A stretch of DNA of 20,020 nt from a virus: IMG/VR virus record IMGVR_UViG_3300028908_000034, positions 1-20,020 of that record; one strand, 5' to 3'. Under the pieces are notes generated by a model. It did no database searches. It was not told the DNA's origin and saw only the letters and a program-made list of their open reading frames with translations. Shown here in pieces: positions 1-20,020 of the stretch (position 1 is the stretch's first letter; each line of letters opens with the position of its first letter). The position numbers and the translations under genes were made by a program.

Positions 1-408
1 CCTAGCCCGGGCTTCATTGCGGTTGCCCCCGCTGCCGGCCGACATCATTTTCCTAGCCCGGGCTTCATTGTAGGGCCCCCCGTTACCGGCCAGACTCATT
101 TTCCTAGCCCGGGCTTCATTACGGTTGCCGCCGCTGCCGGCCAACCTCATTTTCCTAGCCCGGGCCTCATTACGGTTGGCCCCGCTGCCGGCCGGCCTCA
201 TTTCCCCGGCCCGGCCTTCATTACGGTTGCCCCCGCTGCCGGCCGACATCATTTTCCTAGCCCGGGCTTCATTGTAGGGCCCCCCGTTACCGGCCAGACT
301 CATTTTCCTAGCCCGGGCTTCATTGCGGTTGCCCCCGCTATCGGCCGACATCATTTTCCTAGCCCGGGCCTTATTTTGCTTTTGCCCGCCGCCGCCGAGG
401 TTCATTTT
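1..408 (-). other. Open repeat reading frame continuing past the stop of the 371-685 gene (possible C-terminal extension)
   Basis: Read in the phase of codon 408-406, the minus strand is open without a stop to base 1, giving at least 136 codons made almost entirely of the 17-residue repeat. No good ribosome site or separate start is obvious. The natural reading is that this is, or was, the C-terminal part of the 371-685 gene, reached by a +1 shift or by loss of one A at 405-409. The predicted product is Gly/Ala/Asn-rich with regularly spaced Arg and Lys, so strongly basic. It could be expressed by slippage, be a separate decayed 3' end, or reflect a sequencing indel. Confidence 0.5.
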
Positions 409-459
409 TCTTACCCGCGGCCTCATTGCGGTTACCGGCCTTATCGCCCCTATCATTTC
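1..459 (-). repeat. 51-bp (17-codon) tandem repeat array, coding-type
   Basis: Seven clear units of exactly 51 bp lie at 1-51, 52-102, 103-153, 154-204, 205-255, 256-306 and 307-357. Two degenerate units follow at 358-408 and 409-459, and a trace continues to about 510. Units at 52 and 256 are identical. Most units contain the 8-bp palindrome GCCCGGGC. On the minus strand each unit reads as 17 codons, with consensus KMMSAGSGGNRNEARAR, and this frame has no stop from 408 down to base 1. Several differences between units are synonymous (AAC CGC against AAC CGT; GAA against GAG) and indels between units 1-7 are absent, which points to a protein-coding repeat. The array is cut by the window edge, so the copy number is unknown. 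Confidence 0.9.
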
Positions 460-685
460 CGCCGCTTCTAGGTTCGCTCGCCTCTTTTCCCCCGCCGGCA
501 GCATCATTCTTTTTGCTTTCGGCCTTAATCTGCTCCCACGTTTCTGGGGATACCGCGAGTCCGGCCTCAATGAGACTTTCCCCGTACGGCGCCTCTGTTT
601 CGATGATCGTTCCCGGCTTAATATATCCTAACGATTTATCACGCGGTCCGTTATACACGCCGGGAACGATAACTATAACCTTCAT
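371..685 (-). CDS. Small basic-tailed protein of unknown function, 3' end frameshifted out of the 51-bp repeat
   Basis: I do not recognise this 104-aa protein. The N-terminal half (MKVIVIVPGVYNG..., about residues 1-50) looks like a small folded beta-rich domain. The C-terminal half is low complexity, rich in Gly, Glu, Asn, Lys and Arg, and ends with four arginines. The start at 685 is chosen because GGGAGGACGC precedes this ATG; an upstream ATG at 733 lies inside a hairpin. The C-terminal coding DNA is a degenerate form of the 51-bp repeat: the stretch GNRNEA matches the repeat consensus. At 405-409 the gene has five As where other units have four, which changes frame and gives a stop at 371. 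With one A fewer, translation would continue through all repeats beyond the window edge. It follows the capsid and decoration-like genes, so a head-associated role is possible but unproven. Confidence 0.7.
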   Translation of the reverse strand: MKVIVIVPGVYNGPRDKSLGYIKPGTIIETEAPYGESLIEAGLAVSPETWEQIKAESKKNDAAGGGKEASEPRSGGNDRGDKAGNRNEAAGKKNEPRRRRAKAK

Positions 686-743: not shown

Positions 744-1184
744 TTATACCGTCACGGCCTCCGCGTAATTGCTCGGTTGCGTGACGGGTGCATCACCGGC
801 ACGATAGAACAACACAGGCGCAGCGATATGTGCTCCAGTTGTCCCCGAGCCCGCCGTAACCTTCAGTTGAACGTAGCGAAAACCATTGGCGAAATCAAGG
901 TTTTCCGGCTTAACCTCGATGGTCACGACGCGGTTATCGCCGTCAGCCGCCACCTGGGTAATAGCCCCACCAGAAATCGCCTTGCTGCCCGTTCCGGTCC
1001 CATCCGTAGCCTGGTACACAGAAGCATCTACGGTGGTATCAGTATCACCAATGGCAATAATGAACACCGCCCGCCCAAAGCCGCGAATATCGTACCAATC
1101 GGTTGTGGCGCTAGCCCCGTTGAGAGCCTGCGGCACAATCCCCTTGTCCAGTTTCACGTTATCGTGGAACGTTCGTCCTAACAT
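744..1184 (-). CDS. Putative head decoration / small structural protein
   Basis: This is a 146-aa protein directly downstream of the major capsid gene, the usual place for a head decoration or stabilising protein. The start at 1184 follows AAGGAGG with 5-nt spacing; the longer in-frame start would overlap the capsid gene. The sequence is rich in beta-forming and small residues (for example VFIIAIGDTDTTVDASVYQ), has no cysteine, no signal peptide and no membrane segment, and has the look of a small beta-sandwich virion protein. I cannot name a family from the sequence. The structural role is inferred from position and composition; a head-tail adaptor is less likely given its size and fold character. 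Confidence 0.6.
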   Translation of the reverse strand: MLGRTFHDNVKLDKGIVPQALNGASATTDWYDIRGFGRAVFIIAIGDTDTTVDASVYQATDGTGTGSKAISGGAITQVAADGDNRVVTIEVKPENLDFANGFRYVQLKVTAGSGTTGAHIAAPVLFYRAGDAPVTQPSNYAEAVTV

Positions 1185-1194
1185 GTCATCCTCC

Positions 1195-2613
1195 TTACGC
1201 AGCAACCTTCTGAACGGCAAACCGCCACGGTTCCATTACCCGTCCGCCTAGCCGACGCCGAAGCACGAAGTAGACAATGTTCTTCATGTCGGACGTAGCG
1301 TCGGTCGCACGCTTGATCCCCATCCCTATGCGGTCCACAATGTAGTACCCCGTCAAGTCGCCGAATATGATGGGATACGCATTGGCCGCCACGTCGGGCA
1401 TAATCTCCTGTTCGAGAACGGGGAATCCAAGCAACGTGCGCGGCAATGGCTTGTCGCCGCCCTGGTAGGCGAACGGCAACCACAGATTACGATTGGACGC
1501 ATCCGTAATCTTGGCGATAGCGTTTGCGGTCGCTCGGTTCATAATGAATACGGCGTTCTGTCGATACTGAGCGGGAACGGCGAATATGAGGTCCAGCAAT
1601 CCGTTCCACGTCAACGCAGACGCATTGCCCGTGTTAGCCTCAGTCAATCCAAGAGAGTTTACCCCGCCCGGCAGGATACCCTCGGGCTTTCCGACGCCAT
1701 TCCCCTTGATGAACTGGTTATCCTCGTCGATAGCCGACGCCTCGGCGAACAAGGTAGCCACCAGGGAATCGACACTGAACGCCGCGTCCTCCAGCAGGTT
1801 CTGAGACACCGGGATAGATGCCATCACCGTGTGCACGTCGATAGCCTTAAGGCCAAACGTCGCATTCGTAGTGTGCTCCGATTCGGTGGTCTCCTCGTCC
1901 ACCCAGGTCACCCGCACGGCACCGGTATACTGGTCGTCCCCACCCGTGATAACGGGGAATTCGACCCGGTCGCGCTGCGTGGTCCAGGCGCGAGCCCGGC
2001 CACGAATAACCGTCATCCCGGTCAACCGCTTAATGAATTGCGTCTTGAAATCGGCGGGAACGATATATCCGCCGAGGTGGTCCACGCCTTCCACCATCGT
2101 GCTCTTGAGCGCCCGGATATCCTTACCCGCCAGAATCTCCTGCCGAACCTGTTCGGGAGTGAGAACCAGTTGCTTGAGCAAGCCCCGCTCTTCGGGAGTC
2201 AACGCCTGTTCTCCACCTACCAGAAAACGCCGAAACGCCTGGCGGTGCGCAATCAGCCGCCGAGGATAATCCTTGCCGTACAACTCGGTCAGGATTTCCT
2301 TGACTTCCGCCGAAACAGGTCCGTATTGCCCCTCCAGGTACATGTTGAGCGCCGGATCCTCTTTCTCGTTCCCCTCGCCGTTATCGGCCGGCATGGTTCC
2401 GGACCCCTCACCGGGGAGTTGAATACTAACCCCGCCCTGGGGGAGATTATCGAACAGTCCCTTAGCCTCACGCGCGGCCTTAATCAACTCGGCCGCCTTT
2501 TCCATCTCCTTCTTGATGTTCAGCGCTTCGTCATGCTTGCCCTCGGCAACAGCCACGTCGAATTTTTGCCCCAGGCTAGTGAAACGCTGATATAGTGTCG
2601 TTAACGCATCCAT
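1195..2613 (-). CDS. Major capsid protein, HK97 fold
   Basis: This 472-aa protein builds the icosahedral head. The first ~100 residues are a charged, helical delta (scaffold-like) region (TTLYQRFTSLGQ..., then Lys/Glu-rich heptad-like sequence), as in HK97-type capsid precursors cleaved by the neighbouring protease. The rest matches the HK97 capsid pattern: a GGYIVP entry segment, strands around VEFPVITGG, a FGLKAIDVHTV strand, IPVSQNLLEDA in the spine helix region, and IKGNGVGKPEGIL in the loop preceding the A-domain. Residues near the end (RIGMGIKRATD) match the typical C-terminal capsid segment. The ATG at 2613 is preferred over the in-frame TTG at 2619 because AGGAGGG lies at proper spacing only for the ATG. 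It starts 2 bp after the protease stop, so the two genes are co-translated. Confidence 0.95.
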   Translation of the reverse strand: MDALTTLYQRFTSLGQKFDVAVAEGKHDEALNIKKEMEKAAELIKAAREAKGLFDNLPQGGVSIQLPGEGSGTMPADNGEGNEKEDPALNMYLEGQYGPVSAEVKEILTELYGKDYPRRLIAHRQAFRRFLVGGEQALTPEERGLLKQLVLTPEQVRQEILAGKDIRALKSTMVEGVDHLGGYIVPADFKTQFIKRLTGMTVIRGRARAWTTQRDRVEFPVITGGDDQYTGAVRVTWVDEETTESEHTTNATFGLKAIDVHTVMASIPVSQNLLEDAAFSVDSLVATLFAEASAIDEDNQFIKGNGVGKPEGILPGGVNSLGLTEANTGNASALTWNGLLDLIFAVPAQYRQNAVFIMNRATANAIAKITDASNRNLWLPFAYQGGDKPLPRTLLGFPVLEQEIMPDVAANAYPIIFGDLTGYYIVDRIGMGIKRATDATSDMKNIVYFVLRRRLGGRVMEPWRFAVQKVAA

Positions 2614-2615
2614 CG

Positions 2616-3734
2616 TCAACCCTCCTCTAAGATCTCCTTCGTGATGTCAACCCACATACGCGCCACCTCGATAACCGCGTCCTTCAGAGCGTCGTCCCCG
2701 GTCTCCCCGGACGTACCGCCCGACTCCTCGCCGGTCTCCTTGGCACAGCCCGCATCGCCAGTTGACGACACCCCCTCTGTAGGCGGATGTTCTTCCTCTT
2801 CAGATTCCAAATCCTTGAACTCAAGTCCGCACTCGGCGAAATGTTCCTTGACAACACCCACCGGATATTGGACCATCAATCGTGGCTCGGCCGGCATTGG
2901 CGTCAACGAAATCTCCACGATGGGCCACCGTAGAATTCGCCCGTCCTTTGCTACCCGCCGTGCCCGCGGCAACGTGCCGCTCGATGTTCCTAGTTTCTGT
3001 TTCCGAATCAAGTCTATGATGGCCTGTCGGTATCTGTCGGCCGCCTTAATCTGCGCTTCGTACCATAGCCCCATGCTATCCTTGACCAAATAGTCGACAA
3101 CACCCACGACCGACGTTTTCAATTCGTCATCACCAGCGTGACGATAAATCAACGGGAGCCGGCCAATCCCCTTGAACAAACGGTCCAATTCCTCCGTATC
3201 CGGAGTGAAATATTCGCCCGTCAAATCCTTGTGGTCCGGATCCCCCCACAGCACGGCATATCCGCCAACGCGGTGGGTTCCGTCATCGTCAACACCTAGG
3301 TCCTTCACCGCCCCGGCCGCCATCCACACCGTAACATCATTCGGGTCATACGGTCCCTCTACCCGGCCGGCCCGATAACGCCAGGTTCCCCCCAACACAT
3401 CGCTGGCCTTGCGCGCCAGTTGGACGCCCCTTTCCGCCCGGTCCGCCCAAACTACATCCTTGGTCGTCTCCCCGGCGTTGAATTCCTGAACTTGTTTCAA
3501 AATAGATGTCGGATCCACCTCGTTCCCCTCCCCCTCTTTCTGAATAGGATGCCACTTGCCGTCTTTGCCTTGTTTATACTTTTTCTTCACAGCGGCCCAC
3601 GCAACAGCGAAGGCCTTTTTCTCATCCCCCCCATATTCCTCGAATGCCGCGTTGAACGCGGCCACCCAAATTTTCCGCGCCCCCGCCGGTAACCGTTTAA
3701 CCGCGTCCGGCAAATTGTCCTGTGTGTAAGGCAT
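2616..3734 (-). CDS. ChaB-domain / HK97-family prohead protease fusion
   Basis: This 372-aa protein cleaves the capsid delta domain during head maturation. Residues ~1-60 match the ChaB fold: MPY, DNLPDAVKRLP, then AFNAAFEEYGGDEKKAFAVAW and AVKKKY. Residues ~150-290 carry the prohead protease domain (serine herpesvirus-assemblin-like, family S78) with a likely catalytic His199 in IYRHAGDD, Ser251/Ser252 in GTSSGT, and the conserved WPIVEISLTPMPAEP near 270-284. Between them is a charged linker, and the C-terminus is an acidic Ser/Gly/Glu tail (residues ~305-350) that may act as a built-in scaffold or be self-cleaved. GGAGGAGAC precedes the ATG. The gene is first after a promoter and a leader terminator and is followed at once by the capsid gene. 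The ChaB part gives no direct function here; a role in assembly is inference. Confidence 0.92.
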   Translation of the reverse strand: MPYTQDNLPDAVKRLPAGARKIWVAAFNAAFEEYGGDEKKAFAVAWAAVKKKYKQGKDGKWHPIQKEGEGNEVDPTSILKQVQEFNAGETTKDVVWADRAERGVQLARKASDVLGGTWRYRAGRVEGPYDPNDVTVWMAAGAVKDLGVDDDGTHRVGGYAVLWGDPDHKDLTGEYFTPDTEELDRLFKGIGRLPLIYRHAGDDELKTSVVGVVDYLVKDSMGLWYEAQIKAADRYRQAIIDLIRKQKLGTSSGTLPRARRVAKDGRILRWPIVEISLTPMPAEPRLMVQYPVGVVKEHFAECGLEFKDLESEEEEHPPTEGVSSTGDAGCAKETGEESGGTSGETGDDALKDAVIEVARMWVDITKEILEEG

Positions 3735-4036: not shown

Positions 4037-4704
4037 TCGTCCCTCTCCTCGTATTCAAGAGAACAGCGGCAATTTCCCAGGCACGCGGTATGTCCATCCC
4101 CGGGGTTGGGAAACGTTACGGCTGGCTGCCAGCCAAGGGCCTCCAGCGCCGCGCAATCATTACACACACGATTATCCCTGACTGTTAGCCAGCGCGCGTA
4201 CAACACCTTGCCCCGCTGTACAGCAGCCTCCTCGCGCCGTGTTCGCTCGGCCGCCCAGTATTGACTATACCCCTTTCCCGCGTACAGGGCCGCCCGCGCT
4301 GCCGCCTGTTCTGGCGTCAGTTTACCCGCCGCAATATCGTAGACGAAGCGGTTCAGGTACCTGTATTCCGAGCGTAGAATACCCCCGACACGTCCGTAAT
4401 CAGCAGCCGTCAGTTTGTCCCACCCCCCGGCCCCCAGCGCTGCCGAGGCCAAATGCAACGCCTTCAATTCCGCCATAGCCGCCCGCTGAAACACGGCCGG
4501 GGGGATGTCCCCCTTCGCCGCCATGCGCGCCAATTCGCCAAGGCGCGCCGCTGTGTTGTCCGTTACGTTGCGGAGCAAGTCGATAATCGTTTGACGGGAA
4601 ACAAATTTCCCCGTAGACAGGTCGCGATATCTGCTTACACGCCCGTCCCACGCAAAACCGGGGAGATTAAACTTGATCCCCGTCCTAACCTTTTTTGCGG
4701 GCAC
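4033..4704 (-). CDS. Minor head protein, Mu gpF / SPP1 gp7-like
   Basis: This 223-aa protein is the minor head (portal-associated) protein of the Mu F family. The C-terminal signature is clear: TVRDNRVCNDCAALEALGW, then FPNPGDGHTACLGNCRCSLEY, with spaced Cys and His residues that may bind metal. The N-terminal two thirds are mostly helical (ELKALHLASAALGAGGWDKL; YRYLNRFVYDIAAGKLTPEQ), as in the family. I chose the GTG at 4704 because GGAGG lies 7 nt upstream and it overlaps the previous stop as TAGTG; a longer in-frame start at 4770 would overlap the preceding gene by 67 bp. Family members sit inside the procapsid and are needed for infectious particles or DNA ejection. The location just after the portal block fits. 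Confidence 0.85.
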   Translation of the reverse strand: MPAKKVRTGIKFNLPGFAWDGRVSRYRDLSTGKFVSRQTIIDLLRNVTDNTAARLGELARMAAKGDIPPAVFQRAAMAELKALHLASAALGAGGWDKLTAADYGRVGGILRSEYRYLNRFVYDIAAGKLTPEQAAARAALYAGKGYSQYWAAERTRREEAAVQRGKVLYARWLTVRDNRVCNDCAALEALGWQPAVTFPNPGDGHTACLGNCRCSLEYEERDE

Positions 4705-4943
4705 TATTTCGCCTCCAGTACCAATGTGAAATACGGCGTCCCAATAACGCCCATCTCCCACGTCCACCACATGCGCGCATTCTCAACGTCGGCCGTCGTG
4801 ATGTCCGCAAGCGCCTCAATCTCACTATCCGTCAGGATACCCAGGTGTCTACGATAGGACCGGATGACCCGTTCAGCAATCAACGGATGCATACCGGCCT
4901 TGATGAGATTCTGCAGAATGCGCTCCGCTTCTTGTTCGTCCAC
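4704..4943 (-). CDS. Hypothetical 79-aa protein between portal and minor head
   Basis: I do not recognise this protein. It is mostly helical and acidic in its N-terminal part (DEQEAERILQNLIKAG), then basic (ERVIRSYRRHLGILTDSEIE), and ends with a hydrophobic WWTWEMGVIGTPYFTLVLEAK segment. The start is a GTG at 4943, 9 bp after the portal stop, with AGGGGGGGAAC as ribosome site. The stop overlaps the minor head start as TAGTG. Being between portal and minor head suggests a portal-associated accessory protein; this is inference. Confidence 0.75.
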   Translation of the reverse strand: MDEQEAERILQNLIKAGMHPLIAERVIRSYRRHLGILTDSEIEALADITTADVENARMWWTWEMGVIGTPYFTLVLEAK

Positions 4944-4952
4944 GTTCCCCCC

Positions 4953-6563
4953 CTAGTTGGTACCGGTTAACCGCACGGCCGACCGCACATTATCCACCCA
5001 GTTGTTACTGGCCCCTCGTCCGCGAACGTACAATACGCGTCCCGTAGCCCCCAGGGCCGCCCGGAAAATTTCCTTGACCTCGTCCGCTGTTTGGGCCCGC
5101 TCCAACTCGTCGGCTACCCAGGCTCGAATATCATTCGGCAGATACACGGCCCGAAACTGACGCCACGCGTCCGGCCGCCCATCGCGAAATCCCTTTTCCG
5201 CCACCCGTCGCCACCGCCCCAATTCCACAGCCCAGGCCTCAGCAATGGCCGCGCTGTCGTCCAGCCCCTTGCCCGCCTCTACCGTGGCCCGCTGCTCCGG
5301 GTTGGGAACACCAGCGAAACCAGGGGCTAGCGATTGTGGAGATTGCTTGGCGAGAATCCCCAGAATCCGCACCGGAACATCGGCAAGGGGATGGTTGATA
5401 GGCGGGAGGCCTAACTCCTCACGGTTCTCGTTGATTGTACGGTCCTGGCTGTACGTTCGATATTCCTGGACCGCCAGCATACGGTCTTGCGGCCCCACGT
5501 CAGGCACCTCGACACGCAAATCGTCACCGTAGAACAGGCGGAGGCGCGCCGTCAAACCGTATGCGAAATGGTCCGCAATCGGCTGTACCGTGTCGCGTAG
5601 AAAAGCGCTAACCGCCTCCCGCCGGCTATCTCCAGAAAGGGCCCCGTCAAACAACCCCTTTGGTACCCCGAAGGCCCTGTCTATCTCATCGCGCGAAAAT
5701 TCGCGTGACTGGAGAATTTGCATTTGCTCGAGCGTCTGCTGGACTAACTGGACACTGATTTCCCCAGCCCGCACCACGGCCGTGCGCCGCCGCCCTCCAA
5801 ATTCCCGCCTGATTTGCTGTTTAATTGCCTCGTAGGCGGGCTCCGTAATAGTTGGGGGAAGCGACACGATATTAGCCGGTACGGCGTTATCGTCACTGAA
5901 AAACGACCGAACCCATTGCGCTTGACTGTAGTCTATACGCATTCCGTTGAGTGCGGCGACCAAGGGGGATAATCCCTGCCAGTAATCCTCAGGGTTAGGT
6001 GTCCGAAAGTGGAACATGTATTCGCCCGGGATACGCACGACTTCGGTTGGACCAGCGTACAGGTAGTCAACTACCAACTGTCCGTCCGCCGTACGCCTGG
6101 CCGAATCGGGTATAGGGCGCACCGACGCCGAGGGTAGTGGTAGGATTTCGTCTATCCCAAGCCCCGGCCCGTTAGAAACGATGACGGCATACGCGTTCCC
6201 TCGCAGAAGATACCACATCGTCAGGTACTCAAACATGAATTTGCCCGACATGAACCCGTTCGGTTCGCGTAACACCGCCACGGCAGCGTGGTCCTCCGCC
6301 GTCTCACCGCCTACGGTTATATCCGCCTGCATCAACGCGGAAGCGACCTTGTTCCCGATAGCCTGAATATCGCGCCACGCCCAGGCCGACACCATCGCCA
6401 ATCTACGCGAATTTTCCTCCGAGATTGTTTCCTCGCCGAGCGGTTCGCCGCCGTCATAATACGGCAACAGGTTGGCAGACGACTCCCGGCGTGGCGCATA
6501 GGCCTGTATGGCGTCATACCAACCTTTCACAAAATATCCCAAGATTTTCCCAAACGCGTTCAT
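4953..6563 (-). CDS. Portal protein, HK97 type, with extended C-terminus
   Basis: This 536-aa protein forms the dodecameric portal ring through which DNA is packaged and ejected. Family features include AMVSAWAWRDIQAIGNKVAS near 55-75, PNGFMSGKFMFEYLTMWYLLRGNAY near 100-125, the LSPLVAALNGM helix, SREFSRDEIDRAFGVPKGLF near 285-305 and the QDRTINENREELGLPPI segment near 375-392. HK97-type portals are usually about 400-430 aa. Here about 110 further residues follow, with a charged helical region (EAWAVELGRWRRVAEKGFRD...), likely an added C-terminal crown or minor-head-like extension. The ATG at 6563 follows AGGGGGGGGAG. The gene follows the large terminase by 9 bp. Confidence 0.93.
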   Translation of the reverse strand: MNAFGKILGYFVKGWYDAIQAYAPRRESSANLLPYYDGGEPLGEETISEENSRRLAMVSAWAWRDIQAIGNKVASALMQADITVGGETAEDHAAVAVLREPNGFMSGKFMFEYLTMWYLLRGNAYAVIVSNGPGLGIDEILPLPSASVRPIPDSARRTADGQLVVDYLYAGPTEVVRIPGEYMFHFRTPNPEDYWQGLSPLVAALNGMRIDYSQAQWVRSFFSDDNAVPANIVSLPPTITEPAYEAIKQQIRREFGGRRRTAVVRAGEISVQLVQQTLEQMQILQSREFSRDEIDRAFGVPKGLFDGALSGDSRREAVSAFLRDTVQPIADHFAYGLTARLRLFYGDDLRVEVPDVGPQDRMLAVQEYRTYSQDRTINENREELGLPPINHPLADVPVRILGILAKQSPQSLAPGFAGVPNPEQRATVEAGKGLDDSAAIAEAWAVELGRWRRVAEKGFRDGRPDAWRQFRAVYLPNDIRAWVADELERAQTADEVKEIFRAALGATGRVLYVRGRGASNNWVDNVRSAVRLTGTN

Positions 6564-6572
6564 CTCCCCCCC

Positions 6573-7772
6573 CTAAACAAAGTCGATAAGTAAGGACCCT
6601 CGCCGCGCCCCCCACCAGGCGAGCGCGAGGGCCATAACGTAATCGTCGTGATATCCCTCCGGAGCGCTATAGCGCCAGATGCCGGAAGGTAGCCGCCTGG
6701 CCTCGTACGAACGTAACTCATTAATCAGTTCCGGATGGGGCAAGATTGCTAAGTCCCCCCGCTCTATCGCCAACGATAAACCCTCTATGACAACGCGTTT
6801 AGACGCGGCGGTGGTCTGGAATGGAACAACGGGTATCCCGCGCCGGACAACGTCCTCTATGAGAGCCGTTCCCATGGAATTCTCCTCCGCAACCACTTGA
6901 GATGGTCGCCACCTGGACACCAACTCCTCCAGCCGCCCCACCTGGAGTGCGTAATCCACCTGCCGCATACGTTCGGCGTGTACGACCGCACTAATCGTGA
7001 CATCCACCACAACAAACGCCGTAAAATCTTCTATCTTTCCCCAGTCTACGCCAACAACGTACGTATGTCCCTGGACGGGACCGTCCTGTTGCACCGGCTT
7101 AACGGCATCGTTAACGTTGCGAAATACCCCGCCCAGGTCATCCAGGAATTCGGCTAGAAATTCCTGGCGAAAAAATCGGTCCGATAGTGACCGCCTAGCC
7201 TCCTCGATTTCGTCCGGCGGGATATACGGATTAGCCGACGTAGGAAATCGCCACGACTTATACACGCGGCCATCTTCCTGTCCCTTGAGCCAAAGCCGGT
7301 AAAACCAGTTACGCCCTTTGGGCGTGGAGATAATGAGGGCCCCGCCGCGCCTATCCGCCAGGGTGGGCCTCAACACAGCTTCCCACGCCTCTTCGGGTAC
7401 AAGAGACGCCTCGTCTATGATAACGAAATCGAGCGAAACGCCGCGCAAGTGATCTGGGTTATGCGCCGAACGTACTCCTATCCCGCCGCCCCCCGGCAGT
7501 ATTATATCACGCGTGCCCCGGGATACTTTTACCCCGGGGATATCATTAATAATGTTGAGAATTTCTTTCCAGCCGACGGTGGCTAATTGGTACGTTGGCG
7601 CAACCCACCACACACGCTCCCCACGCGCCGCTTTTGTCAGTGATAGCCCGACGCCGAGAACCGTTTTCCCCCAGCGCCGTCCGCACGCTAAAACGTTGAA
7701 TCTCTTCAATCCACGTAAAACTTCCAGTTGGCTGTCGTGTGGTTCCGGCAACCGTATCAACACACGCGCCAC
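6573..7772 (-). CDS. terL: Terminase large subunit (ATPase/nuclease)
   Basis: This is the DNA-packaging motor, 399 aa from the GTG at 7772. Walker A is CGRRWGKT (30-37), Walker B is FVIIDEAS (116-123), and the coupling motif is ISTPKG (148-153). The C-terminal RNase H-like nuclease shows Asp243 in GVDWGK, VAEENS (294-299) and the YHDDYVMALALAW pair Asp376/Asp377. Length is on the short side for the family but all motifs are present. The GTG overlaps the stop of the deoxyribosyltransferase-like gene as TAGTG and has GGAGG about 10 nt upstream. A longer ORF from 7847 would overlap the preceding gene by 76 bp and is unlikely. TerS is one gene upstream and the portal directly downstream. Confidence 0.95.
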   Translation of the reverse strand: MARVLIRLPEPHDSQLEVLRGLKRFNVLACGRRWGKTVLGVGLSLTKAARGERVWWVAPTYQLATVGWKEILNIINDIPGVKVSRGTRDIILPGGGGIGVRSAHNPDHLRGVSLDFVIIDEASLVPEEAWEAVLRPTLADRRGGALIISTPKGRNWFYRLWLKGQEDGRVYKSWRFPTSANPYIPPDEIEEARRSLSDRFFRQEFLAEFLDDLGGVFRNVNDAVKPVQQDGPVQGHTYVVGVDWGKIEDFTAFVVVDVTISAVVHAERMRQVDYALQVGRLEELVSRWRPSQVVAEENSMGTALIEDVVRRGIPVVPFQTTAASKRVVIEGLSLAIERGDLAILPHPELINELRSYEARRLPSGIWRYSAPEGYHDDYVMALALAWWGARRGSLLIDFV

Positions 7773-8254
7773 TACCCGATATCCTCCAGAAACATGTCGA
7801 TGATGTTGTCCAGAACGGGCGCAATGTGTCCGTCGCACGCCAGCCAAACGTTAGAATACAACCGCGCCAGCGTTTCGAAATACCCGCGCGTTGGGTGTCC
7901 GGGCTCGCACCCTATCAGAACCTCACCGAACTCCTTACGTAACGCTATCCCCAGTTCAACCATCGACAACATCGCAAAAACGTGGCCGAAATTAACGACA
8001 ACGATATCCGCCACATCAATGCCGCCGTGCTCCCAGCGCACCTGGTCCACGTAATCGCTATCTCCGCTGTCTGGCCACGTAGACCGCCAATCATCACGCA
8101 CCGGGTCAATCACGACACCATCGATGCCCTTATATCGATAGCGTAGATGCCTCCACACACCTTTCCGCCAATTCGTCCATGTCGAGCCACCTAGAAAAAT
8201 GGCAAACGCCCGGCCGGCGACATCAATCTTCGCCGGCGGTCTCACTATTTTCAT
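7772..8254 (-). CDS. Nucleoside 2-deoxyribosyltransferase-like protein
   Basis: This 160-aa protein resembles the nucleoside 2-deoxyribosyltransferase-like family (Rossmann-type). The glycine-rich entry is AIFLGGSTWTNWR (18-30). DPVRDDW (50-56) and QVRWEHGGIDVADIVVVNF (71-89) follow, and the likely catalytic glutamate is Glu100 in SMVELGIALR. Such enzymes exchange bases on deoxynucleosides, or in some phage relatives act in nucleotide salvage or base modification. The gene lies between terS and terL, overlapping TerS by 32 bp and TerL by TAGTG, so it is made together with the packaging motor. That placement is unusual. The fold call is fairly sure; substrate and reaction are not. Confidence 0.75.
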   Translation of the reverse strand: MKIVRPPAKIDVAGRAFAIFLGGSTWTNWRKGVWRHLRYRYKGIDGVVIDPVRDDWRSTWPDSGDSDYVDQVRWEHGGIDVADIVVVNFGHVFAMLSMVELGIALRKEFGEVLIGCEPGHPTRGYFETLARLYSNVWLACDGHIAPVLDNIIDMFLEDIG

Positions 8255-8768
8255 CGTTCCACGCTCCCGAGCCCCACGTCACGTCCACGACGATGTTGCC
8301 CTGTGTTTCCGTGATTGTCTCCGGTGCCCCACGCGCCACGCGTTCCAGTTTGGCCGCCTCGACGAACCACTGGCGAACCTCGGTGGGAGATAGTTCAGTC
8401 TCAGGTAGTGTCTTCAGGCGCTGGGCCGCCTTGCTAATCATAGCCACCGCGATAGTGGCATGACGTTCATTCATTTCCCGGATTGCCTGCAGTTGCGCCT
8501 CGGCCGCCACGCGAGCCTTGTATTCGTCGAACGCCTCGGCCCGCCGCCGCCAGTGCCACGCGGATGAACGCTGGTACCAATAGTTTAGGCGGGATGGAGA
8601 CACGTTGCCTTCATACACTATTTCTATAGCTTTCTTAATCGTTCTCTCAAACGGGGGGAGATCGCGATAAACAACAAATGCGTGAAACGACTTGGGCGAT
8701 TCACCGGGTTGCCTCTCCCAAACCGGTTCCACCATATTTTCCAACGATATTCCCTTCACGTTAGGCAT
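8223..8768 (-). CDS. terS: Terminase small subunit
   Basis: This 181-aa protein is the likely DNA-recognition subunit of the terminase. It has the pattern WERQPGESPKSFHAFVVYRD, a helix-turn-helix-like stretch (PFERTIKKAIEIVYEG...SPSRLNYWYQRS), the WHWRRRAEAFDEYKAR block and then a long helical oligomerisation region (VAAEAQLQAIREMNERH...). These are typical of many phage small terminases. The C-terminus is acidic. AGGAG precedes the ATG at 6-nt spacing. It is separated from terL by the deoxyribosyltransferase-like gene. Confidence 0.82.
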   Translation of the reverse strand: MPNVKGISLENMVEPVWERQPGESPKSFHAFVVYRDLPPFERTIKKAIEIVYEGNVSPSRLNYWYQRSSAWHWRRRAEAFDEYKARVAAEAQLQAIREMNERHATIAVAMISKAAQRLKTLPETELSPTEVRQWFVEAAKLERVARGAPETITETQGNIVVDVTWGSGAWNDENSETAGED

Positions 8769-8940
8769 TTCCGTCTCCTATACCTTGTCTCCATTCCCAC
8801 AGTTTCCATAACGTCTTAAAAACCGCCGTAATCAAGCGCCGCTCAAACTGGACGACAACACTGCCGTCGACAGATATGCTCCAGCCGCTTAGGCGGTTTA
8901 CACCGTAACTAGAATTATACTCGATTCTCAACTGCCTCAT
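8761..8940 (-). CDS. Small 59-aa protein upstream of terS (easily missed)
   Basis: A short reading frame fills the gap between the methyltransferase and terS. It starts with ATG at 8940, inside the last codons of the methyltransferase gene, and ends with TAA at 8761, overlapping the terS start region. The product begins MRQLRIEYNSSYGVNRLSGW, then ISVDGSVVVQFERRLITAVF, then a Trp-rich KTLWKLWEWRQG helix. GGGGGGAAGACG precedes the ATG. It has realistic composition, and coupling at both ends supports a real gene. Function unknown; the amphipathic Trp-rich end could bind a partner or membrane. Confidence 0.72.
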   Translation of the reverse strand: MRQLRIEYNSSYGVNRLSGWSISVDGSVVVQFERRLITAVFKTLWKLWEWRQGIGDGNA

Positions 8941-10420
8941 CGTCTTCCCCCCAGGCCGCCAGGCTTTCCGGGTCTACGTCCAGGTCAATCTCGCCTATTT
9001 CCGCCATCGCTTCCCTGGCGTCCCCCTTGATGAACACAAGCACATTCTGGTGTGCTTTCCCCATCTTACGCATGTTCTGAAACTGCTGTATAACGCGAAC
9101 GGGGAGAGACCCAAGCGGCGTGACCAGGATAGCGTCGTTGTACAATCTCATCCCGACCCGTCCAAACGCCTCTATTGTATCACCGACAAGGTTATGATAT
9201 GTTCCGTCACGCCCACGGATATTCTGGACGACAATAACCGCAAACCTGTTTTCCCTCAATGCGTTAGCCGTATGTCTGATAATCTCTTCATACATTTCCA
9301 GAAACGACTCGTAATCACCTGCGTTACTCAAATCCCGTGGATCGTTGCTATACACCTCAAGGTTGAAATACGGCGGGCACGTCAGCACGAAATCAAATTC
9401 ACCCTCGACGAGTGATGGCAAATCGCGGCTATCTCCAATAATCCACGTCGGCTGACTGTCCGGAACTATCCGCTCAGCCTGGGCCCGATTAGCCAGAACC
9501 TGTTTTTCGCGCAATTCGATGCCGACGTACTCGCGTCCCAATACGGATGCCACTATACCGCGCTCGCTACCGCCGGCGAACGGGTCCAATACGCGCCCAC
9601 CCGGGGGGCAAAACCACCGATACATTAACTCGGTAAGAACCGGGTCGAATATAGAAAGCACCCCCCCCGTATTCGTCTGGGCTATTATAGACTCTTCGGG
9701 TAGGTAATTCTTGAGATGCTCACGAACAAATTCATCGTGAGAAATAGGGTGGCCTAATTTTTTCTCAGCATCACGTTTGTACCAATAATATCCAGGTATG
9801 GTGCCGGAAAGAGACCCGGACACCTTCGTGTCTATCCGCCCCAACTCCCCCTTCAGTCCCAACGAAACCCATGCCCGCTTTCTCTTTTGCCAGTACCCCT
9901 GGCGGGCATCCAATATAGAAAACGGTGGAACAATGAATCTGTCGCGCAACGTAGCGCTAACGTATTCCGCCGGTTCCTCGGGTGAATCATCCCCGATAAT
10001 ACTTTCTAAGTCTACGTCACTAATTGCCGACTGTAGCGCGCCGCGTACGTCATCGGTTATCTCGTCTATCTGGTCCAATAGCGCGGTTAGAATCCCCTCG
10101 TCCGCCTTGGCCATAGCCCCAATCGGATCGAACGTCGCCAGAACGCGGGCCTCTTCCTCTTCGCTCAGGTCAACATATTTTACGGGCACGGGAGTATCTT
10201 CCCCGTGACGCAATGCTAACGTCACACGCAAATGCCCGTCGATAATATGCCCGGTCCGTTTGTTCACAATAACATCGTCCACCCACCCGACTTCGCTAAG
10301 AACAAGATTCAACGCGTTCTGCTGCTCCTGCGGGTGGATACGCCAGTTAAGCGGGTTGGCCAGCAACTGACCGGCCGGAACAACGTCCGTCCCGACTATT
10401 CTGCTTTTGTATTTGCTCAT
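8915..10420 (-). CDS. ParB-like nuclease domain / DNA methyltransferase fusion
   Basis: This 501-aa protein joins two domains. Residues ~10-95 form a ParB/sulfiredoxin-like domain (LLANPLNWRIHP; IIDGHLRVTLAL at 59-70; VPVKYVDLSEEEEARVL). Residues ~255-475 form an SAM-dependent DNA methyltransferase of the N6-adenine/N4-cytosine type, with catalytic TCPPY at 347-351 and the SAM-binding DPFAGG at 279-284. The order, FxGxG-like motif before the catalytic motif here, should be compared with the alpha/beta/gamma classes. A middle region (FIVPPFSILDARQGYWQKRK) is seen in phage relatives of this fusion. No restriction endonuclease is adjacent, so it is a phage orphan methyltransferase, probably for anti-restriction or packaging-linked marking. 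The ATG at 10420 overlaps the preceding stop as ATGA; the longer ORF from 10444 is rejected. Confidence 0.9.
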   Translation of the reverse strand: MSKYKSRIVGTDVVPAGQLLANPLNWRIHPQEQQNALNLVLSEVGWVDDVIVNKRTGHIIDGHLRVTLALRHGEDTPVPVKYVDLSEEEEARVLATFDPIGAMAKADEGILTALLDQIDEITDDVRGALQSAISDVDLESIIGDDSPEEPAEYVSATLRDRFIVPPFSILDARQGYWQKRKRAWVSLGLKGELGRIDTKVSGSLSGTIPGYYWYKRDAEKKLGHPISHDEFVREHLKNYLPEESIIAQTNTGGVLSIFDPVLTELMYRWFCPPGGRVLDPFAGGSERGIVASVLGREYVGIELREKQVLANRAQAERIVPDSQPTWIIGDSRDLPSLVEGEFDFVLTCPPYFNLEVYSNDPRDLSNAGDYESFLEMYEEIIRHTANALRENRFAVIVVQNIRGRDGTYHNLVGDTIEAFGRVGMRLYNDAILVTPLGSLPVRVIQQFQNMRKMGKAHQNVLVFIKGDAREAMAEIGEIDLDVDPESLAAWGEDDEAVENRV

Positions 10421-10617
10421 TCCGGTAGCACCTCGACTCTGCACCTATCGCATAATACCTCGCTATGCTCTATCCCCTCCGCATCACGCCAGCGGATAGA
10501 CGCCCACCCGCTCATCCACGCAATGCGTTCAACTCCCCCCTTCGTCGGTGCCTCAATTCGCTTGCCGCACCGAGCACACACTAACACCCACCGCGTAATA
10601 ATAGGTTGGGCCTGCAT
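10417..10617 (-). CDS. Small two-CxxC (zinc-ribbon-like) protein
   Basis: This 66-aa protein has two CxxC pairs, CARCGK near residue 14 and CDRCRV near residue 57, a spacing consistent with one structural zinc site. Between them are Trp-rich strands (WMSGWASIRWRD). The start is one of two adjacent ATGs; the second (10617) is better spaced from GGAGG. It overlaps the upstream stop and its own stop overlaps the methyltransferase start (ATGA), so it is translationally coupled to the enzyme. It may bind nucleic acid or assist the methyltransferase; this is inference. Confidence 0.78.
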   Translation of the reverse strand: MQAQPIITRWVLVCARCGKRIEAPTKGGVERIAWMSGWASIRWRDAEGIEHSEVLCDRCRVEVLPE

Positions 10618-10952
10618 CATCCCTCCAGGCTATGCGGATTGCTACCACCCAATCCGTATTTCCCCTTGTTGGCATTATAGACTGCGTTCGCAATCATAAC
10701 GACCCATCCCAGACGTCCCCCAATAGCCGCCACGGCCAGGACGGGATCGTCCCACGGAATATTATTGAACAAGTCTCCAGTTAGCGCGGATACCGTTATT
10801 GTTACCACGAAAATGGTTCCATACGCCACCCAAACCTTGGCCGCCGACCCTTCCGTACCAGCGACGGCCTTGACCAACTCGATTACCCACGGCAACACAA
10901 AAGCCACTAGTGTCGAAACGATAATAAACGTCGCATTGTCATTCCCCTGCAT
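10617..10952 (-). CDS. Three-TM small membrane protein, holin candidate
   Basis: This 111-aa protein has three hydrophobic segments at about 8-30, 39-58 and 70-90, a short polar N-terminus and a basic C-terminal tail (NANKGKYGLGGSNPHSLEG). Size and topology fit a class I holin, and it lies four genes after the SleB-like hydrolase in the same operon. A second small membrane protein (11483-11644) is also a holin candidate, so one may be the holin and the other an antiholin or pinholin. AAGGAGG precedes the ATG at 5 nt. Without a recognisable family the holin call stays moderate. Confidence 0.7.
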   Translation of the reverse strand: MQGNDNATFIIVSTLVAFVLPWVIELVKAVAGTEGSAAKVWVAYGTIFVVTITVSALTGDLFNNIPWDDPVLAVAAIGGRLGWVVMIANAVYNANKGKYGLGGSNPHSLEG

Positions 10953-12074: not shown

Positions 12075-12386
12075 TCATCTTAGCCTGCGAACGGTATTGT
12101 TTATTTGCATAATCGTATATGCTGTTCCCCAGAACCCCAGGCCGTTTGTGATGGCCGAGATTCTGTAATCTTGACCCCGGTATGTTAGAAGCCACTCTTT
12201 TCTGTCCCCCATACCGGGGCGCTGGACGGTGGTAAGGTTTTTCTCAATCTCATCGAATTCGCTAGGCCTCTCCTCTGGCCACTCCCCGGTGGCCAGAGAT
12301 GCAAAATACGCTACAACATCAGGCGAGACGTATGCATCATATTGTATCTTGATTTCGTCGTTGCTACCATAAAATTGTCGTTTCAT
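12075..12386 (-). CDS. Hypothetical 103-aa accessory protein
   Basis: I do not recognise this protein. It starts MKRQFYGSNDEIKIQYDAYV, has an acidic middle (EWPEERPSEFDEIEKN) and a C-terminal half that looks like a small alpha/beta domain (EWLLTYRGQDYRISAITNG, FWGTAYTIMQ). No membrane segments or metal motifs. The ATG at 12386 is preceded by GAGGGGGGCAAAA, a leader shared with other accessory genes in this window. It has its own promoter (12419-12447) and terminator (12036-12062), so it is a single-gene unit, the pattern of early host-takeover or anti-defence genes; that role is inference. Confidence 0.75.
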   Translation of the reverse strand: MKRQFYGSNDEIKIQYDAYVSPDVVAYFASLATGEWPEERPSEFDEIEKNLTTVQRPGMGDRKEWLLTYRGQDYRISAITNGLGFWGTAYTIMQINNTVRRLR

Positions 12387-12418
12387 TTTTGCCCCCCTCG
12401 TTTTTTGATTACACCAAT

Positions 12419-12447
12419 AGTATAGCATACCCTCTGTTTTTTGTCAA
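12419..12447 (-). promoter_or_regulatory. Sigma-70-type promoter module (copy A)
   Basis: TTGACA (12447-12442) and TATACT (12424-12419) are separated by 17 bp. It is flanked by GGGC upstream and by ATT-G-G-T-G-TAATCA-AAAAC downstream, almost identical to the modules at 13272-13300 and 17802-17830. It drives the 103-aa gene. Confidence 0.88.
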
Positions 12448-12464
12448 GCCCTTTGAAGGGAGAC

Positions 12465-12522: not shown

Positions 12523-12848
12523 CGACTTTCTACCGATACGCCTTTTTCCAGCATAAATTGCCAGATTTCGTTAGCCACTTCCTCAGCCAGAGTCTCGAAC
12601 GCCTCTTCTTCGTTATCGCCGTACCACTCTGGCCACCCGCCCCAATTCTGGGGCTCGAATCGGAACGTGTATATAAACGCATCTTTCGGCCAATTAACAA
12701 ACGTGCCGCCAGAAAGCGGCTCACTGATGACGACCTCATAGTCGCCATCAGGCCGGGGAAGAAATGCAACCTCACGCCGCCAGCCGGCGATTATGCCACG
12801 GATTGTCTTTTCTGCAATGTCTTGCGGATCCATCTGTGATAGTTTCAT
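12465..12848 (-). CDS. Hypothetical 127-aa protein with a terminator hairpin inside its 3' end
   Basis: I do not recognise this protein. The N-terminus (MKLSQMDPQDIAEKTIRGII) and the helix EAFETLAEEVANEIWQFMLE resemble the layout of the neighbouring 105-aa protein, so the two may be distant paralogs. The middle is Trp-rich (FEPQNWGGWPEWYGDNE). The ATG at 12848 follows GGGGGGCAAAA. The last ~20 codons run through a 10-11 bp hairpin and its U-rich tail, so the annotated C-terminus (STTTIGIWTAPNLLFL) is probably a readout of the terminator after loss of an earlier stop. It is cotranscribed with the 105-aa gene upstream. Confidence 0.72.
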   Translation of the reverse strand: MKLSQMDPQDIAEKTIRGIIAGWRREVAFLPRPDGDYEVVISEPLSGGTFVNWPKDAFIYTFRFEPQNWGGWPEWYGDNEEEAFETLAEEVANEIWQFMLEKGVSVESRGRSTTTIGIWTAPNLLFL

Positions 12849-12872
12849 TTTTGCCCCCCCTGTTCATGTTTT

Positions 12873-12917
12873 CCCATCCCACCCAACCCCGCCCGTATCC
12901 CCGGCGTCGGTAGTTTG
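12873..12917 (-). repeat. Intercistronic G-run element, copy 1 (possible RNA G-quadruplex)
   Basis: In the mRNA sense the element follows the stop of the 105-aa gene and reads CCGACGCC, then G runs of 4, 3, 4, 3, 3 and 3 separated by ATAC, C, TT, T and AT. Loops this short favour an intramolecular quadruplex. Two related copies lie at 19307-19345 and 19850-19892, also between a stop codon and the next ribosome site. Confidence 0.85.
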
Positions 12918-12918
12918 T

Positions 12919-13236
12919 TTACAGCAGGTCCAACTTGTCTAGTTCTTCCGCAATCGCTTCATCTATTTCGTCCCACGTTGCCTGGCCGTCCATCACCAGG
13001 CCCGTGAAAAACCAAATCCACGCCATGGCCAAATTCTCGGCCACCTCTTTGAGCCCCTTCCCGTTCAGCGCATCTACGCTGATTTGAAACTTGCCGTCTT
13101 CGTACTTCACAGACGGCGCTTCCGGGAAGTGGTGAATAAACGTGTCTTGCCACCCGCCACCGTTCCACCGGGCTAACCGCGTAGTCGCTAATGCAATCTT
13201 CTGTATGTCGTCAATTCTTTGTATTTGTAGTTTCAT
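12919..13236 (-). CDS. Hypothetical 105-aa protein, paralog of the partial gene at the right edge
   Basis: Function unknown. The protein starts MKLQIQRIDDIQKIALATTR, has a beta-rich middle (QDTFIHHFPEAPSVKYEDGK) and a helical end (EVAENLAMAWIWFFTGLVMD, then GQATWDEIDEAIAEELDKL). That end matches the partial gene at 19893-20020 (WWEFFASQVEKGLATWTEVDQAL) at many positions, and both are followed by the same G-run element. So gene plus element appears to have been copied within this genome. GGGGGGACACAAAA precedes the ATG, and promoter copy B lies directly upstream. Confidence 0.78.
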   Translation of the reverse strand: MKLQIQRIDDIQKIALATTRLARWNGGGWQDTFIHHFPEAPSVKYEDGKFQISVDALNGKGLKEVAENLAMAWIWFFTGLVMDGQATWDEIDEAIAEELDKLDLL

Positions 13237-13271
13237 TTTTGTGTCCCCCCTGTGTTTTTGATTACGCTAAT

Positions 13272-13300
13272 AGTATACCATACATTCCTCTCTTTGTCAA
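13272..13300 (-). promoter_or_regulatory. Sigma-70-type promoter module (copy B)
   Basis: TTGACA (13300-13295) and TATACT (13277-13272) are separated by 17 bp. An upstream AAGGGC and a downstream ATTAGCGTAATCAAAAAC match the other two modules. It drives the 105-aa and 127-aa genes. Confidence 0.9.
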
Positions 13301-13335
13301 GCCCTTTTCGTGAGAAATTCCCCCAAAAACGCAAA

Positions 13336-17543: not shown

Positions 17544-17771
17544 TTATTCCTCCCACGCCTCCGCAAGTTTCTCTTCTACGAAGACGGCCATTTGCCGGTC
17601 CATAGCCGCCTTCAATGCGTCAAAATGATTAAAAACCACCCGCCACCCATAACGACGACGTGCTTCCGCATACACCCGCCGTCGCCCCTGGCGGATACTG
17701 GGCCGGAAGCGGGCCCCAGCCCAGGCCGCCTTCATTTCATGGTGCCACATTTCAGAAAGTCGCTGTTTCAT
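17544..17771 (-). CDS. Hypothetical 75-aa basic protein
   Basis: An unknown, very basic, Trp/Arg-rich small protein (MKQRLSEMWHHEMKAAWAGA, RQGRRRVYAEARRRYGWR) with an acidic C-terminal helix (MAVFVEEKLAEAWEE). The ATG at 17771 follows GGGGGGGCAAA, the same leader type as the other promoter-proximal accessory genes. It is the first gene after promoter copy C. Charge suggests nucleic-acid binding; no family recognised. A longer ORF from 17873 would start upstream of the promoter and is rejected. Confidence 0.75.
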   Translation of the reverse strand: MKQRLSEMWHHEMKAAWAGARFRPSIRQGRRRVYAEARRRYGWRVVFNHFDALKAAMDRQMAVFVEEKLAEAWEE

Positions 17772-17801
17772 TTTGCCCCCCCGTTTTCTGATTGCGCTTA
17801 T

Positions 17802-17830
17802 AGTATAGCACAGAACCCGCCTTTTGTCAA
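17802..17830 (-). promoter_or_regulatory. Sigma-70-type promoter module (copy C)
   Basis: TTGACA (17830-17825) and TATACT (17807-17802) are 17 bp apart. AAAAGGGC upstream and ATAAGCGCAATCAGAAAAC downstream match copies A and B. It should drive the long KH-to-RNA-ligase operon from 17771 to 13336. Confidence 0.9.
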
Positions 17831-17857
17831 GCCCTTTTCGCCCGAAAATGGAAAAAA

Positions 17858-19289: not shown

Positions 19290-19306
19290 GTTTCCCTCCC
19301 CTTTCT

Positions 19307-19345
19307 CCCATCCCTCCCAACCCCGCCCGTTCCCCGGCGTCGGTA
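19307..19345 (-). repeat. Intercistronic G-run element, copy 2
   Basis: In the mRNA sense it follows the stop of the 156-aa gene: CCGACGCC, then G runs of 4, 3, 4, 3, 3 and 3 with linkers AAC, C, TT, A and AT. Two more runs (GGGG and GGG, in 19293-19301) continue into the ribosome site of the next gene. It aligns closely with copy 1. Confidence 0.85.
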
Positions 19346-19350
19346 ATCCT

Positions 19351-19821
19351 TTATCCTATCCGCATTTCAGCAGAAAATATGTCCCCACCGTGCTCGTCCG
19401 CCCACACCGGAACCGCACGCCATGCGTGCGCCCCCGAAAGGCGGATTGTCTTTTTTACTATCGCTCGCGCCGCTTTTTCTGTGCCGTCCCACTTGACGGC
19501 ATTTTCGAACGTTGCCCCGGACGGGGCACTACCCATCCATACCACCGTCCGGCCAACGTTTTCCTTGGTCAGCATTTCGTCGAGGCGGGCATAATTGCTC
19601 TTAATATCGCTCGCAAACTTCTCGAGCGACGGTGCCCGCCATTCCACGTACCGCTCAACAGTGACGTTAAGCCGCCCCGTACGCTCGTATTCCTCCGCGA
19701 GCCGGCGCGCCACGCTCTGGGCAGCGCGCCGGGGGGCTTCCCCGTCGCGAAGAACAAGACGAATGATTTCTTTATCCTCGGGAACATTTGCCTCGTCAAC
19801 AAATATTTTAACCAGATTCAT
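19351..19821 (-). CDS. Hypothetical 156-aa protein
   Basis: I do not recognise this protein. It begins NLVKIFVDEANVPEDKEIIR, with alpha/beta composition, then helices RRAAQSVARRLAEEYERTG and LEKFASDIKSNYARLDEMLT, and a C-terminal part with ATFENAVKWDGTEKAARAIV and AHAWRAVPVWADEHGGDIF. No clear motifs. GGGGAGG precedes the ATG at 5 nt. It lies between two copies of the G-run element, as if such elements mark each gene of this accessory block. Confidence 0.75.
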   Translation of the reverse strand: MNLVKIFVDEANVPEDKEIIRLVLRDGEAPRRAAQSVARRLAEEYERTGRLNVTVERYVEWRAPSLEKFASDIKSNYARLDEMLTKENVGRTVVWMGSAPSGATFENAVKWDGTEKAARAIVKKTIRLSGAHAWRAVPVWADEHGGDIFSAEMRIG

Positions 19822-19849
19822 TTCAGCCTCCCCTTCATATTAGTATTTT

Positions 19850-19892
19850 CCCACCTACCCGCCCCGCCCGTTCCCCCGGCGTCGGGAGTTTG
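19850..19892 (-). repeat. Intercistronic G-run element, copy 3
   Basis: Directly after the TAG of the partial right-edge gene the mRNA reads CCGACGCC, then G runs of 5, 3, 4 and 3, then TAGGTGGG. It is slightly diverged from copies 1 and 2 but shares the CCGACGCCGGGG core and the AACGGGCGGGG block. Confidence 0.82.
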
Positions 19893-20020
19893 CTACAGGC
19901 CCATGCGCCACGCCGCGTTGCGCAGGGCCTGGTCCACCTCAGTCCATGTCGCCAGTCCCTTCTCCACCTGGCTGGCGAAAAACTCCCACCAGCCGGTCTC
20001 GAGGGAATCCACCACCGCCT
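19893..20020 (-). CDS. Partial hypothetical gene, paralog of the 105-aa gene
   Basis: The right edge cuts off the 5' part. The visible 42 codons end in TAG at 19893-19895 and read AVVDSLETGWWEFFASQVEK, then GLATWTEVDQALRNAAWRMG. This matches the C-terminal region of the 105-aa protein at 12919-13236 (WIWFFTGLVMDGQATWDEID) in the order of W, FF, V, G, ATW, E and D. Both genes are followed by the same G-run element. Function unknown. Confidence 0.75.
   Translation of the reverse strand, partial: AVVDSLETGWWEFFASQVEKGLATWTEVDQALRNAAWRMGL

Follow-up and report, generated by a model that had tools for sequence, protein, structure and literature searches.

At one edge of a phage genome fragment, a small gene runs into a tandem array of 51-bp units whose open reading frame is one base out of phase with the gene itself. 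The question raised by this locus is whether the array is the tail of that gene, a gene of its own, an untranslated element or one arm of a switch between two reading frames. The account favoured here, with a probability of about one half, is that the array is a coding expansion of the tail of the short gene, later split from it by a 1-nt insertion.

Gene order and the short gene

The window, i.e. the whole stretch of DNA that was analysed, is the entire 20,020-bp IMG/VR fragment, and its source is a tailed phage. The features relevant to the locus, in the order of the minus strand, are the following:

6573-7847, minus strand: terminase gene
4953-6563, minus strand: portal gene
2616-3734, minus strand: ChaB/protease-like gene
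1195-2613, minus strand: major capsid protein gene, HK97 type (PF05065, 5.5e-65)
744-1184, minus strand: gene of a phrog_28483-like protein of unknown function, syntenic with 11717-12166 of the relative L088 (57/151 identical)
371-685, minus strand: short gene, 104 aa, phrog_2616-like N-terminal domain, stop TAA at 373-371
406-437, minus strand: partial degenerate copy of the unit within the 3' end of the short gene, found by local alignment
405-409, minus strand: AAAAA run in the mRNA (TTTTT in the window)
355-405, minus strand: degenerate first unit, MNLGGGGQKQNKARARK in the repeat frame, overlapping the last codons and the stop of the short gene
1-354, minus strand: clear array of six complete 51-bp units and a 48-bp seventh, open in the repeat frame
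1-325 of the second contig, L002: continuation of the array, with the stop of the repeat frame at 374-376 of that contig

The short gene is preceded by a strong Shine-Dalgarno sequence (GGGAGG, -10.3 kcal/mol), and residues 1-68 of its product match positions 2-65 of the 77 in the phrog_2616 profile (E = 7e-06), while its tail is basic, of low confidence and ends in EPRRRRAKAK. It lies between the capsid and head-tail adaptor genes, as judged from the order in L088 and from the adaptor gene found on L002; the array, placed after the capsid genes by the initial annotation, indeed adjoins the 3' end of this small gene next to the capsid gene. Protein searches of viral contigs, phages and plasmids gave no relatives of the short gene or of the repeat, and the array unit matched no family and no PDB entry. 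AlphaFold models of both proteins are of low confidence (61 and 63), and Foldseek matches are weak (best 0.027), mostly to uncharacterised phage proteins. The N-terminal domain thus resembles uncharacterised and connector-type phage proteins and is unlike a surface or DNA-binding protein; a role of the repeat tail at the virion surface or in binding DNA is a conjecture.

Several further elements of the fragment deserve mention in their own right. The DNA methyltransferase gene (N6_N4_Mtase; 8915-10444, minus strand) encodes an N-terminal stretch that matches ParB-like partition families. Upstream of early-type genes, a dispersed repeat of about 80 bp (12375-12454, 13225-13310 and 17765-17840, minus strand) has TTGACA-like and TATACT-like boxes with GGGGGG and ATGAAAC after them, and resembles, by its motifs, a multiplied promoter and ribosome site. 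A second dispersed repeat, found upstream of several genes, is located as follows:

12841-12930, 19292-19345 and 19814-19900 of the window, and 23260-23330 of IMGVR_UViG_3300028908_000031: GC-rich leader repeat CGACGCCGGGGAACGGGCGGGG

Rfam and tRNA scans returned nothing.

The array and its phase

On the minus strand, positions 1-405 form a tandem array of 51-bp (17-codon) units in one frame that is open to the contig edge. TRF gives a period of 51 with 7.2 copies (score 496), besides higher-order periods of 102 and 204 over 1-436, and clear units start at 354, 303, 252, 201, 150, 99 and 48, the last being cut by the contig end; the two results agree with the seven or more units in one open frame initially described. 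From 354 to 1 there are neither indels nor stops in the repeat frame, and every clear unit is exactly 51 bp long, a length divisible by three and equal throughout, as in coding minisatellites.

Two degenerate copies precede the clear units. The one starting at 405 is identical to the consensus at 36 of 51 positions. The other lies within the short gene, where 32 bases from 437 to 406 align to the unit with a local score of 35, the maximum among 300 shuffles being 30, and where the gene frame reads GNRNEAAGKK, in phase with the GNRNEARARK of later units. Given this resemblance of the unit to the 3' end of the short gene, the array is taken as an expansion of the tail of that gene; the score above all shuffles and the shared phase (NRNEA) ahead of the A-run both support this reading.

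The phase changes by one base, as initially noted, at the A-run of 405-409, which has five A's, against AAAA or AAA in the clear units. From ATG685 to the repeat frame there are 280 nt, so that the two frames are offset by one base, and the gene frame ends at TAA 373-371, 16 nt ahead of ATG354.

The other half of the array

Array DNA patterns were scanned in viral and genome contigs, and the only additional match, from the viral collection, was L002 (IMGVR_UViG_3300028908_000031; 23,447 bp). This contig begins within the array and overlaps the window end exactly over 118 bp. The GC contents of window and L002 are 0.566 and 0.590, and their tetranucleotide frequencies correlate with r = 0.95, above the half-versus-half agreement inside either contig. 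Furthermore, L002 carries the genes expected next, namely those for the adaptor (phrog_442), neck, tail terminator, glycosyltransferase, tail and tape-measure proteins. On these grounds of sequence and gene content, window and L002 are taken as the same phage population, and the two array-bearing contigs are probably two halves of one.

In L002 the repeat frame carries on without a stop codon, reads NERRVVLWPT at its end and terminates 13 nt within the adaptor gene (GTG at 364). On this contig, the end of the repeat and the stop that the initial annotation had proposed to look for are both present. Both the continuation of the frame up to the adaptor gene and the constant 51-bp length of the clear units support the origin of the array as a coding tail. 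Positions 326-376 of L002 were considered as a further copy of the repeat and rejected, with a score like that of shuffles.

Together, the two contigs contain a minimum of about 11 clear units and two degenerate ones. The longest exact repeat in either half is 101 bp and the overlap of 118 bp is shorter than 127 bp, so that the real number of units may be above the minimum of 11 clear ones. The value of 127 derives from the far ends of the contigs, which have exactly 127 bp in common (window 19894-20020; L002 23321-23447), and this suggests short-read assembly with k=127.

The common 127 bp are the 3' end of a gene, ending in EVDQALRNAAWRMGL and a stop; if the contigs join at the array, they would form two near-identical copies pointing outwards, between which an unassembled segment may lie. 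L002 also shows two features of its own: a glycosyltransferase gene (phrog_2170, 4.7e-27; 2242-3318) between those of the tail terminator and the major tail protein, and, at 7639-8545, in-frame repeats with a 210-bp period within a long ORF (4700-10705; probable tape measure).

The mode of assembly bears on the possibility that the fifth A is an artefact of sequencing or assembly, the gene being intact and its real product one long fusion protein. The frames are phase-homologous across the junction, where the codon preference also switches (see below), and the breaking of contigs at the array marks the region as hard to assemble. However, a consensus error in a five-base homopolymer is uncommon in a short-read assembly, as the exact common end suggests this one to be, and an artefact is very unlikely.

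Is the repeat frame translated?

Codon log-odds were trained on 16 genes from the window and L002. In each half of the array the repeat frame outranks the five others, with 0.071 and 0.081 against -0.2 or lower; over 570-406 the gene frame scores 0.387 versus -0.084 for the repeat frame. Thus, the preferred frame switches at the A-run, which is a further point for the tail-expansion origin. In leave-one-out trials the true frame was best in 49/49 windows and no wrong-frame window reached 0.08, the repeat-frame score itself being near the lower limit of those of real genes; scores of 0.1 or less occur in only about 4% of true windows.

The substitutions are less telling. The initial annotation described synonymous differences without indels and considered selection on the protein likely. 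The lack of indels holds, whereas the 23 extra alleles among distinct units fall on all codon positions (9 third, 8 second and 6 first), and pN/pS in the repeat frame is 0.52, with a permutation p of 0.17, which is not significant; the substitutions are therefore no proof of selection on protein by themselves. As 74% of permuted arrays are also stop-free, the open frame is weak evidence too. In sum, the array frame is open and has codon support, is offset by one base from the upstream gene and shows no significant selection.

These values also enter into a doubtful alternative, in which the array is untranslated or neutral, left after truncation of the gene and kept by frequent tandem duplication, or acts as an RNA or DNA element. 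It would account for a pN/pS like that of permuted arrays and for the many stop-free permutations, and the array transcript is strongly structured (z = -5.0). However, repeats that contain GC palindromes are expected to give such a fold score, and the opposite strand also reaches -3.1; codon usage favours the repeat frame in both halves, the clear units are all 51 bp, and the frame stops at the adaptor start.

If translated from ATG354, the minimal joined repeat ORF would encode 203 aa with a pI of 11.55, 39 K/R versus 18 D/E and 76 G/S/N, and the predicted peptides include MSAGSGGNR and MSLAGNGGPYNEAR. How ribosomes would reach it matters, because the candidate starts of the repeat frame have Shine-Dalgarno energies of -2.0 to -6.9 kcal/mol, compared with about -9 to -12 for most genes here. 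Such weak signals favour an origin by read-through over an independent gene. They weigh against the tentative proposal of two genes, in which nothing is missing from the 104-aa gene and the array constitutes an ORF of its own downstream, expressed by termination-reinitiation, with TAA at 373-371, then TAGGAAAATGATG at 354/351 and an operon-like ending over the adaptor start. The short distance of 16 nt between stop and ATG354, the best codon score of six frames, the 13-nt overlap with the next gene and a short form that is about as long as the L088 homologue and also Arg-rich at its end all suit two genes; yet neither L088 nor the databases searched yielded a homologue of a separate repeat ORF.

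A syntenic relative

L088 (IMGVR_UViG_3300044998_000491) was reached through portal relatives. Its gene order is capsid, phrog_28483-like protein, two further ORFs, a homologue of the short gene and a phrog_442 adaptor, the latter identical to the adaptor here at 54/192 residues. The homologue has 109 aa, is identical to the short gene product at 22/42 positions (52% over 42 residues; E 3e-10) and matches phrog_2322, a head-tail connector (9e-04). The 51-bp array is absent from L088. A profile scan started from the two-sequence alignment found the L088 contig again, and only that one, among viral contigs, and none among genome contigs. In the more distant connector relatives (L009-L083) different genes occupy this place. 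In two unrelated phages, L080 and L009, the ORF near the adaptor, upstream of the adaptor match, is itself repetitive, with units of the GTGTAYDATV and GTGTALAPG types, and repeats beside neck genes may be recurrent.

The relative points in two directions. Its homologue ends in TRRPRRR before the stop, and the last codons, CGG AGG, overlie the Shine-Dalgarno sequence of the adaptor; in the phage studied here the same CGG AGG is in the repeat frame, not in the gene frame. This phase match, with a chance of one in three, suggests that the repeat frame is the original frame of the tail. The similarity of the 104-aa form to the homologue in length and Arg-rich end suggests the opposite, and by this comparison of sequences the functional gene may consist of the short form alone.

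L088 also bears on the initial suggestion that the gene may switch, by slippage at the A-run, between short and long products. The phase change does coincide exactly with a homopolymer, past which the repeat frame stays open. However, frame 0 reads AAG AAA AAT GAA at this site, without a stop codon there, and the passage from gene frame to repeat frame requires a shift of +1 (or -2). A5 is a weak slippery run, five A's being short for transcriptional slippage. No slippery site that is both suited to this shift and conserved in relatives was found: there is only A5 here, L088 has the short form alone, with neither array nor second frame, and L002, the sole other contig with the array, does not include the A-run region. 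A programmed or phase-variable switch is thus extremely unlikely, and it is highly improbable that the A-run is a real switch point by which virions would carry both a short connector-region protein and a long, basic, repeat-tailed form with a variable number of units.

Origin of the array

A coding expansion of the gene tail, the favoured origin, does not need a regulated switch. What is seen in the sequence is that 51 bp akin to the 3' end of the short gene have been multiplied, partly as multi-unit blocks (compare the periods of 102 and 204), so that at least 11 clear in-frame units now fill the space before the head-tail adaptor gene; the expansion is specific to this lineage. The repeat frame would be the original frame of the gene tail, and the ancestral product presumably consisted of the N-terminal domain followed by a long, basic repeat tail rich in Gly, Asn, Arg and Ala (its 203-aa minimum has a pI of about 11.6). 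The fifth A at 405-409 would be a later 1-nt insertion, or an unresolved assembly variant, that shortened the product to 104 aa. As assembled, the sequence would yield the repeats only through weak reinitiation at ATG405 or ATG354, or never. Against this account stand the frame broken as assembled, a 104-aa form near the 109 aa of L088 and also with an Arg-rich end, purifying selection that is not significant, a 3'-end phase match with a one-in-three chance, and the low-edge codon score. Its chief competitors, each of rather low probability, are the two-gene arrangement with reinitiation and the untranslated array.

Relation to other phage repeats

Tandem repeats have been reported in 85% of phage genomes, according to a report cited by the authors of the corynephage CL31 study (PMC8002715). 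In CL31, the putative minor tail gene clg55 contains an in-frame coding minisatellite of 42 bp (14 aa) whose copy number is 4, 6 or 8 between plaques, and the usual assembly methods failed there (PMC8002715). The array described here is likewise a coding-type minisatellite of a phage that is hard to assemble. It differs in that the CL31 array is in frame inside a minor tail gene, whereas the present one, broken in phase by one base, occupies the 3' end of a small gene located between those of capsid and adaptor, and its unit sequence matched nothing else in the collections searched. The BACON-domain repeats of crAssphage, which have grown by successive duplications in a tail-associated protein (PMC6949934), are similar as tandem protein repeats in the structural region of a phage; however, BACON repeats are folded domains, and those found here are 17-residue low-complexity segments without a family match. 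With connector-region proteins of the phrog_2616/phrog_2322 type the short gene shares the N-terminal match and the place ahead of the phrog_442 adaptor, but the relative L088 has no array, the tail expansion being specific to this lineage. By analogy, the array belongs with the CL31 and BACON repeats, from which its gene and its phase break set it apart.

The locus adds a head-tail-region gene with a coding-type minisatellite to those of phages. Genes of this type probably go under-reported, since short-read assembly breaks at the site of the array. The locus also shows that, where a phase break adjoins a repeat, the rest of the array and a syntenic relative should be consulted before any switching is proposed.
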